Shown in pieces: positions 8,957 through 11,939 of a stretch of DNA of 64,000 bases. Below the pieces are notes generated by a model. The model had not been told where the DNA came from. It worked only from the letters and a program-made list of their open reading frames with translations, and did not search any database. A program made the position numbers and the translations under genes. Source of the DNA: Erysipelothrix sp. HDW6C (lineage in GTDB: Bacteria; Bacillota_I; Bacilli_A; Erysipelotrichales; Erysipelotrichaceae); the NCBI RefSeq assembly GCF_011299615.1, contig NZ_CP049861.1:248001-312000 (forward strand), read 5' to 3'. Every line of letters begins with the position of its first letter. Position 1 is the stretch's first letter.

Positions 8957-8986
8957 AAAAAAGAGACCCACGTGGAGTCTCTCTAT
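8957..8986 (-). terminator. Intrinsic terminator after fba
   Basis: On the minus strand GAGAC-T-CC-ACGT-GG-GTCTC folds into a hairpin followed by TTTTTT. It ends the pyrG-fba transcript. Confidence 0.82.
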
Positions 8987-9000
8987 TGAAGTTGTTTAAA

Positions 9001-9867
9001 TTAAGCCTTGTTTGCTGAACCGAAAACTTCGATTTTTTCTTTAACAGTTGCAACCATTGCATCGTATCCTGGTGCTAATAATTTACGAGGGTCATAGTTT
9101 TTACCTTCTAAATCTTTACCAGCAATGATGAAATCGCGTGTTGCTGCTGCAAACACTAATTGTAATTCTGTATTAACGTTGATTTTTGAAACACCCAATG
9201 AGATTGCTTTTTTGATTTGTGCTTCGTCAATTCCTGAACCACCGTGTAATACTAATGGGATGTTTCCTGTTGCAGCTTTGATTGCTTCTAATGTTTCGAA
9301 GCTTAATCCTGCCCAGTTTTCTGGATATTTACCGTGGATATTACCAATACCTGCAGCTAAGAAATCAATGCCTGTATCTGCCATTGTTTTACATTCTGCT
9401 GGGTCTGCTAATTCACCTGAACCGATAATTCCATCTTCTTCTCCACCGATTGAACCAACTTCGGCTTCAACAGATGCACCTTGCGCATGTGCAATTGCAA
9501 CAATGTCACGAGTTTGTGCTAAGTTTGCTTCAAGATCTAAGTGTGATCCATCATACATAACTGAAGTAAATCCAGCTGCAAGCGCTGCTTTTGCGCCTTC
9601 GTAGCTACCGTGGTCTAAGTGTAGTGCCACAGGAACTGTGATGTTCAATTCTTCGATCATACCTTTAACCATACCGACGATTGTTTTGTAACCTGTCATG
9701 TATTTTCCAGCACCTTCTGAAACTGCAACCATGATTGGTGAGTTCATTGCTTGTGCTGTTGAGAGAACTGCCTTTGTCCACTCGAGATTGTTAATGTTGA
9801 TTGCAGGGACAGCGTAGTGGCCATCACGTGCATTTTCTAACATTTCTTTTGCTGAAACTAATGCCAT
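9001..9867 (-). CDS. fba: Fructose-bisphosphate aldolase, class II
   Basis: 288 aa. It cleaves fructose 1,6-bisphosphate to glyceraldehyde 3-phosphate and dihydroxyacetone phosphate in glycolysis. The Zn-binding HLDHGS motif, the Glu-rich loop EAEVGSIGGEEDG, and the phosphate-binding LHGGSGI and SKINVNTELQ segments are all present. The gene begins 28 nt after pyrG, has AGGAGGA upstream, and no terminator or clear promoter intervenes, so it appears to be read from pyrG as in Bacillus-type rpoE-pyrG-(spo0F)-fbaA clusters. Confidence 0.96.
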   Translation of the reverse strand: MALVSAKEMLENARDGHYAVPAININNLEWTKAVLSTAQAMNSPIMVAVSEGAGKYMTGYKTIVGMVKGMIEELNITVPVALHLDHGSYEGAKAALAAGFTSVMYDGSHLDLEANLAQTRDIVAIAHAQGASVEAEVGSIGGEEDGIIGSGELADPAECKTMADTGIDFLAAGIGNIHGKYPENWAGLSFETLEAIKAATGNIPLVLHGGSGIDEAQIKKAISLGVSKINVNTELQLVFAAATRDFIIAGKDLEGKNYDPRKLLAPGYDAMVATVKEKIEVFGSANKA

Positions 9868-9895: not shown

Positions 9896-11527
<1,632 letters not shown>

Positions 11528-11540
11528 CTAAACAAAATAA

Positions 11541-11570
11541 AAGCTCCCATCAAATGGAAGCCTACTGCCC
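11541..11570 (-). promoter_or_regulatory. pyrG leader: initial GGGC plus intrinsic terminator (candidate CTP-sensing attenuator)
   Basis: The predicted +1 is the G at 11570 and the transcript starts GGGCA. AGGCTTCC (11563-11556) pairs with GGGAGCTT (11548-11541), with two G-U pairs and a 7-nt loop, and is followed by TTATTTT. In B. subtilis pyrG, low CTP makes polymerase stutter at the initial GGG, and the extra Gs pair with a pyrimidine-rich 5' terminator arm. Here the arm CUUCC could pair with added Gs. The architecture is seen in the sequence; the mechanism is inferred. Confidence 0.7.
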
Positions 11571-11576
11571 TTTCTT

Positions 11577-11605
11577 ATTTTAGCAAACTAAAATACTTAC
11601 TTCAA
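11577..11605 (-). promoter_or_regulatory. pyrG promoter
   Basis: Minus strand: TTGAAG (-35), 17-bp spacer, TAAAAT (-10) preceded by TGC (extended -10). Exactly six bases separate the -10 from the GGG start. It lies between the rpoE stop and the leader. Confidence 0.75.
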
Positions 11606-11618
11606 CTGAAATCTATAA

Positions 11619-11939
11619 TTATTCGTCTTCGACGCTTATTTCGATTTCATAATCCTCAAATTCATCTTCATAGTCATCATAACTTTCAAGAAGATCTGGA
11701 TCAATTTGCAAGCTTTCTAGGGTATGTCTGTCGCGTAAATCCCATTTATTACCTTCAAGAGCAATAAAACGTGAATCTAACATCAACGCGTTATAAAATG
11801 ATGCGACTTTTCGTTTCGCAACTTCTTCGGTCAAGTTTACCTCGTCCGATACTTCTTTCCAAAGTTTTTGGAACAATACTTCTTTTTTCTTTTTTTGTAA
11901 TTTTTCAAATGCAATATCACTAAATGATTTCGATGCCAT
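11619..11939 (-). CDS. rpoE: RNA polymerase delta subunit
   Basis: 106 aa. The first 75 residues match the HARE-HTH fold of the delta subunit (KSFSDIAFEKLQ, FYNALMLDSRFIALEGNKWDLR), followed by an acidic tail (DDYEDEFEDYEIEISVEDE). Delta helps recycle polymerase and lowers non-specific DNA binding in Gram-positives. The acidic tail is only about 30 residues, much shorter than in the roughly 170-residue Bacillus protein. GGAGG precedes the ATG, 3 nt after the upstream gene. Transcription from here would pass through the pyrG promoter into the pyrG leader terminator. Confidence 0.92.
   Translation of the reverse strand: MASKSFSDIAFEKLQKKKKEVLFQKLWKEVSDEVNLTEEVAKRKVASFYNALMLDSRFIALEGNKWDLRDRHTLESLQIDPDLLESYDDYEDEFEDYEIEISVEDE

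Follow-up and report, generated by a model that had tools for sequence, protein, structure and literature searches.

A compact pyrG leader in Erysipelothrix with the parts of a CTP-sensing reiterative-transcription attenuator, and a candidate GAGC sister form in other Bacilli

A CTP-sensitive attenuator that works by reiterative transcription was reportedly described for B. subtilis pyrG by Meng, Turnbough and Switzer in 2004. The accessible part of PMC6431027 reports G addition at the S. pyogenes pyrG start, as in B. subtilis and S. agalactiae, and, together with the accessible part of PMC4448216, a similar start with a terminator for S. agalactiae pyrG. For comparison, we inspected nine pyrG leaders from Bacillales and Lactobacillales, marking targets by eye, and used the seven that have a -10-N7-GGGC arrangement (L060 lacks it and L044 has six bases). 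These seven, comprising five named plasmid-collection records and two Pseudogracilibacillus assemblies, include B. velezensis, a near relative from which we took the figures for the B. subtilis comparison, and S. agalactiae, whose leader of 221 nt has its target at +27 and a seven-base discriminator. In all seven the discriminator has seven bases, and the targets lie at +27 to +50.

Direct reading of the minus strand of the window (the whole 64,000-nucleotide stretch of Erysipelothrix sp. HDW6C DNA analyzed here) confirmed the promoter, discriminator, GGGC start and terminator that an earlier note had placed before pyrG. A -35 element, TTGAAG (11600..11605, also found by promoter scan), and a 17-base spacer ending in TGC lead to an extended -10 element, TGC-TAAAAT (11577..11585, with TAAAAT at 11582-11577), the six-base discriminator AAGAAA (11571..11576) and the predicted transcript start GGGC (11567..11570), which, judged by sequence and conservation, would provide a GGG slippage tract and a CTP-dependent C at +4. 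An intrinsic terminator hairpin follows (11541..11563), identified by scan, reading and folding, the 5' arm of which carries GCTTCC (11556..11561), the predicted partner of a (G)nC 5' end according to folding and its occurrence in 13 of 13 genomes of the genus. Behind the hairpin are a T-rich tail, TTATTTTGTT (11540-11531), the pyrG Shine-Dalgarno sequence, AGAAGGAG (11522..11529), and pyrG itself, encoding CTP synthase (9896..11518, ATG at 11518), whose product, the only PyrG match in the genome, scores above the TIGR00337 cut-off. A mechanical scan recovered both the promoter (9/12, with TG before the -10 element) and the terminator. The finer points of the note were also borne out: the CUUCC target contains two U, the leader, put at about 50 nt, measures 52 nt, and the terminator, said to begin within 8 nt of the start, has a stem from +8.

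Like the B. subtilis system, this locus combines pyrG with a GGGC start and, before the gene, a terminator whose 5' arm can pair with G. It is, however, considerably more compact than its counterpart in B. velezensis: (i) the discriminator has six bases and is A-rich, rather than seven and T-rich; (ii) the target lies at +10 instead of +39; (iii) the leader has 52 nt as opposed to 182 nt; and (iv) the small hairpin ahead of the terminator in the B. subtilis type is, by eye, absent here. By sequence and conservation, the predicted start has C directly after GGG and is suitably spaced from the -10 element; a predicted intrinsic terminator separates start and gene; and pairing of the 5' arm with extra 5' Gs is predicted for the time before the 3' arm exists, and not at equilibrium.

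We consider it highly probable that this leader is a compact, Bacillus-type CTP-sensing reiterative-transcription attenuator of pyrG. In the proposed mechanism, transcription would begin at 11570 with GGGC. When CTP is ample, C would be added at +4, the transcript 5'-GGGCAGUAGGCUUCC... would fold into the hairpin at 11563-11541, and most transcription would end before pyrG. Under CTP shortage, the polymerase would pause at +4, and GGG would slip backwards along the CCC template and be extended by further Gs; the resulting (G)nC 5' end would pair with GCUUCC as it leaves the polymerase, ahead of the 3' arm, and, with GCUUCC sequestered, pyrG and then fba would be transcribed. The parts of the leader, their conservation and the predicted pairings are established directly, and we infer from them the start site, the slippage, its CTP dependence and the kinetic capture. 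As such, the attenuator is very likely not new in kind, being a compact version of a known switch. It would place slippage-based CTP control of pyrG in the Erysipelothrix order, in a minimal form in which start and target are ten bases apart; such a form should lend itself to reconstitution, and as few as two extra Gs are predicted to bring saturation. A literature search in one library, combining Erysipelothrix and pyrG, found nothing.

The predicted saturation is evident in the folding of this leader's 5' half, which has an energy of -1.6 kcal/mol unextended, -4.0 kcal/mol with one extra G and -8.2 kcal/mol with two, beyond which further Gs add no stability. With two extra Gs the helix GGGGGC/GCUUCC, to which the C at +4 itself belongs, is complete and closes a five-base loop, although the target offers only 5-6 bases and two of the pairs are G-U. 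Across 56 leaders of the order (one of 57, G021, was omitted), eight extra Gs yielded a median gain of 6.6 kcal/mol in the 5' half, compared with 0.7 for A, 0.4 for U and 1.25 for C, and the gain with Gs was at least 4 kcal/mol in 50 of the 56. Among 47 unique leaders the mean gain was 6.49, while shuffled sequences gave 3.91 ± 0.32, the top of 200 shuffles reaching 4.64; for the window leader alone, 51 of 2000 shuffles did at least as well. In a larger set of 100 GGGC leaders, eight Gs lowered the mean from -2.8 to -10.4.

At equilibrium, the anti-hairpin (-7.9) is less stable than the terminator (-11.6), whatever the number of added Gs. Equilibrium folding alone was rejected as a predictor of antitermination on this ground, and the attenuator model consequently needs kinetic capture, with the anti-hairpin acting before the 3' arm is made. 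In six of the seven Bacillales and Lactobacillales leaders the terminator is likewise lower in energy than the 5' half with four Gs, S. agalactiae being the exception, in a comparison of energies that is not like for like. The equilibrium advantage of the hairpin also fits a simpler account, in which a plain terminator ends rpoE transcripts and damps pyrG constitutively, while GGGC is merely a good start with no effective slippage. This account, which we regard as distinctly unlikely, further draws on the scan of the rpoE-pyrG interval, where no other rpoE terminator was detected, and on the frequency of the GGGC pattern, which on its own is not enriched in the genome: TANNNT-N6-GGGC occurs at 97 sites genome-wide, against 204 for a reversed control, and TTG-N20-TANNNT-N6-GGG at 11, against 16.

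Only at pyrG is the latter pattern followed by a clear terminator by eye within 55 bases, the other 10 of the 11 sites lacking one. A terminator finder applied to 32 of the 97 GGGC sites returned a hairpin of -8 kcal/mol or lower at three: pyrG (-10.5), L127 (-9.7), where GGGC itself is part of the stem, and L137 (-14.4), where the hairpin begins 42 bases downstream. By a loose duplex score, CTTCC in the terminator arm is nothing special; the score for a G10 duplex placed the pyrG arm only 16th among 75 window hairpins, or 20th when the loop was included, and was dropped because many of the 75 hairpins lie inside genes and bulges were allowed. Since the single-sequence pattern is common by chance, its significance rests on conservation.

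The closest named relatives by PyrG (84-87% identity) are E. anatis, E. aquatica, E. tonsillarum and Erysipelothrix sp. HDW6A, and the source genome groups with the genus, to which 12 further genomes are assigned. The earlier note had made its reading depend on the joint conservation of the GGGC start and the terminator in relatives, and both are kept in 13 of 13 Erysipelothrix genomes. In every one of the 13, GGGC lies six bases past the -10 element, TG is retained before that element, and GCTTCC occurs at +9 or +10. This block is identical throughout, whereas its 3' partner arm shows four variants, a pattern that would be unexpected for a plain terminator. As a control, the fba terminator (8960..8984, minus strand, in the window) was compared in 12 of these genomes: it comprises 12 different hairpins with no common block, which resemble each other only partly and only within groups of near relatives.

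At the level of the order, we compared one pyrG leader from each of 102 genomes (G035, whose frame is off by one base, was retained because the analysis drew on upstream DNA alone). In 57 of the 102, TANNNT-N6-GGGC lies no more than 200 bases from the start. These 57 comprise 13 of 13 leaders in Erysipelothrix, 7 of 49 in the rest of its family and 37 of 40 in a second family of the order. Neither GGGC nor GAGC, the alternative start described below, was found in 3 of 40 leaders of the second family and in 42 of 49 of the family outside Erysipelothrix, and the latter figure counts against generality. To avoid presupposing the start, a start-blind promoter scan was applied to 186 leaders and returned a promoter reaching the chosen score in 138. 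Six bases past the -10 element, GGGC occurred in 90 of these and GAGC in 21 (one or the other in 111 of 138), while every other tetranucleotide occurred at most twice. When any GRGN at a distance of 4-8 bases was allowed, C came next in 153 of 165 leaders, the free choice falling on GGGC in 104, on GAGC in 49 and on all others together in 12.

The position of the start relative to the promoter is equally constant. With discriminators of 4-8 bases allowed and ties resolved in favor of six, the length is six in 97 of 105 GGGC leaders (five in the other 8) and in 48 of 49 GAGC leaders. This constancy speaks against start-site switching of the kind known from E. coli pyrC and codBA, where initiation depends on NTP levels. 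Applied to these leaders, a change in NTP levels would displace the start site by one or two positions, and pairing with the target would be confined to the longer of the 5' ends. Unslipped (A)GAGC could indeed pair over 4-5 bases with either GUUCU or GCUCU, so that a one-base shift could matter in GAGC leaders; on the other hand, the unslipped 5' half of the window leader reaches only the -1.6 kcal/mol given above, and G addition is what the accessible parts of the streptococcal pyrG reports describe. Taken together, we hold start-site switching to be very improbable.

A PyrR-binding RNA element is among the families present in Rfam, and yet no Rfam family matched the locus at its gathering threshold, neither this element nor any other. 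A leader of 52 nt with a single hairpin leaves little room for an aptamer, and the conserved letters are those of promoter, start and target. A ligand- or protein-binding leader, whether a riboswitch or of PyrR type, is in our view hardly credible, even though the accessible part of PMC11109978 names a 'pyrG motif' beside a former riboswitch candidate. Comparison of leaders supports the attenuator reading proposed in the note, with slippage inferred, and makes the slippage model testable by evolution, in that start and target should change together.

Start and target do covary across the leaders read, which is difficult to reconcile with a plain terminator. A class-level search of 149 genomes provided 84 leaders from outside the order, in 23 of which GAGC stands in the exact place of GGGC. 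These 84 represent the same number of genomes among 100 above the cut-off, and one of the 16 omitted, G231, was added later. A later set of genomes was picked by family after the GAGC form was known, with pattern matches of family f12 placed first; 39 of the 40 above the cut-off were included, G472, which starts inside the protein, being omitted, and L393, a second G358 copy on a cut contig, was dropped. In all, 226 pyrG leaders comprise 105 with GGGC, 49 with GAGC at the same place and 72 with neither. The GAGC leaders of other Bacilli share with the window leader the promoter spacing, the C at +4 (a selection criterion) and a short terminator before pyrG, but differ in having an (A)GAGC start and a UCUC target; the window leader, with GGGC and CUUCC, is a sister of this form and not a member of it.

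UCUC is present in the 5' half or loop of the terminator in 48 of 49 GAGC leaders, compared with 29 of 105 GGGC leaders (Fisher p 4e-18, uncorrected for kinship). The contrast is found both in the 186 leaders that predate the choice by family (22 of 23 versus 24 of 97) and in the 40 later ones (26 of 26 versus 5 of 8). An A at -1 precedes the start in 49 of 49 GAGC leaders and in 96 of 105 GGGC leaders; our first GAGC count had demanded this A and so yielded 49 of 49 by construction, and a recount without any required base also gave 49. Because a slipped two-base hybrid needs that A, its presence counts as support. In a swap test requiring an ungapped helix of -5 kcal/mol or lower, (AG)4C found a partner in 43 of 49 GAGC leaders and 25 of 100 GGGC leaders, while G8C did so in 34 of 49 and 86 of 100, respectively (5 of the 105 GGGC leaders, without a terminator by the criterion used, were omitted). 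Another measure, the energy gain with G compared with AG, was discarded: AG equaled or exceeded G in 5 of 23 GAGC and 4 of 93 GGGC leaders, since poly-G binds more strongly in both forms, and it is the ungapped swap test that separates them. Three AG units gave GAGC leaders a modest gain (2.79, against 2.06 ± 0.25 for shuffled sequences, 1 of 300 being as high).

Among the GAGC leaders of two families, the 5' target does not vary at all (16 of 16 and 11 of 11 leaders), compared with six and four variants, respectively, of the 3' arm. In a comparison of arms over eight groups and 53 sites, the side with more states was the 3' side at 14 sites and the 5' side at 3 sites (sign test p 0.013, for windows chosen by motif and sites that are non-independent); choosing the window of the best motif favors the 5' side where variants exist, although in the three groups quoted here the target is exact in every row. 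In some f12 leaders the target sits in the loop, on stems that are otherwise unlike one another, and a third AG (AGAGAGC) is present in four of twelve leaders of this family. The pattern TATAAT-N5-AGAGC..UCUC..UUUU was detected in 51 of 395 genomes of the class, against 4 with a reversed control; among 30 pattern loci kept, 26 precede a PyrG match by 51-112 bases, whereas 4 are without one. On a PyrG tree built by a quick method from 110 of 131 labelled rows (alternate order-level GGGC rows were left out), start type needs 7 changes, 5 of which are forced by starred branches. Over 5 independent pairs, too few for significance, the score for an AG-compatible target is 2.8 in favor of an association with GAGC and 0.0 against it, and the corresponding values for UCUC are 2.7 and 0.5. 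One exception, G133, has a CTCTCTC target and a start that is neither GGGC nor GAGC.

On this evidence, we see an even chance that the pyrG attenuator exists in two interchangeable forms within the class, one adding G at GGGC and the other adding AG units at (A)GAGC with a UCUC target. CTP would be sensed in both; in the GAGC form, the polymerase would slip back by two bases and add AG units, and the terminator target would have shifted from C-rich to UCUC, matching the start. If so, pyrG would be controlled by dinucleotide reiterative transcription, and a polymerase error usually discussed for single-base tracts would have become a two-base regulatory device. The GAGC form would be the part likely to surprise specialists. 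Dinucleotide slippage as a means of pyrG control was not found in the titles and abstract openings of one library. The accessible part of PMC4448216 does report di- and trinucleotide reiteration at S. agalactiae starts (15% AU). In three GAGC leaders of family f12 (L373, L387, L389), the 3' arm of the hairpin seems to hold the Shine-Dalgarno sequence, with the start codon right after the T-run; in these, the switch might also act on translation.

The gene downstream of pyrG (9001..9867, minus strand), which, following the earlier note, we take to be fba, for fructose-bisphosphate aldolase, begins 28 nt after pyrG with no terminator between. The note had described it as lacking a separate promoter. 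A weak promoter-like pair, TTGCAA-N16-TAAAAT (9/12; 9898-9926, minus strand), lies across the end of pyrG, which makes the claim uncertain, as fba may have its own supply. The suggestion that CTP level might affect fba is reasonable in that pyrG and fba are co-directional, with a gap of 26-36 nt, at 12 of 12 readable Erysipelothrix loci, and is weakened by the same promoter-like element. The promoter-like letters recur at several Erysipelothrix loci, yet they also encode the PyrG C-terminus. One further genus has a pyrG-fba gap of 25, and in one more another gene lies in between; a search reaching 1,500 bases to each side at 14 second-family loci, and 600 bases to each side in the five named records, found no fba. 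In Erysipelothrix, the attenuator would also tie a glycolytic gene to CTP.

Upstream of the pyrG promoter lies a gene (11619..11939, minus strand) that, by its position, is presumably rpoE, encoding RNA polymerase delta. Its stop codon is 48 bases from the predicted pyrG transcript start and, as the terminator scan of this interval found no other terminator, the attenuator probably also ends rpoE transcripts. In Listeria, Priestia, S. agalactiae and S. aureus, too, rpoE is annotated as the gene directly before pyrG.

Other pyrG leaders have a different appearance. In eight genomes of the Erysipelothrix family (L184, L196, L191, L216, L210, L208, L220, L215; L194 is similar), the 5' side of the terminator hairpin has a run of at least eight A followed by C and the 3' side a mostly YUUGGUUU-like sequence, with GAGG-like and CCUC-like arms; no Rfam match up to E 1 was found for these leaders, in which the A run and C might be another CTP-dependent slippage site. 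Four more of that family (L185, L186, L182, L204) have an early GGCCG palindrome, then GGTTTTRAAACCC, and a terminator GACATC..GATGTT before pyrG; the Rfam search of these four returned one match, on L204, far below gathering score. Two related leaders (L212, L198) read AAAGGG ... ATTCCGCAAGGAT ... with ACCCCTTTT-like ends. Elsewhere in the window, on the plus strand, a lysine riboswitch (RF00168, 57188-57354) and a T-box leader (RF00230, 62066-62297) were identified.
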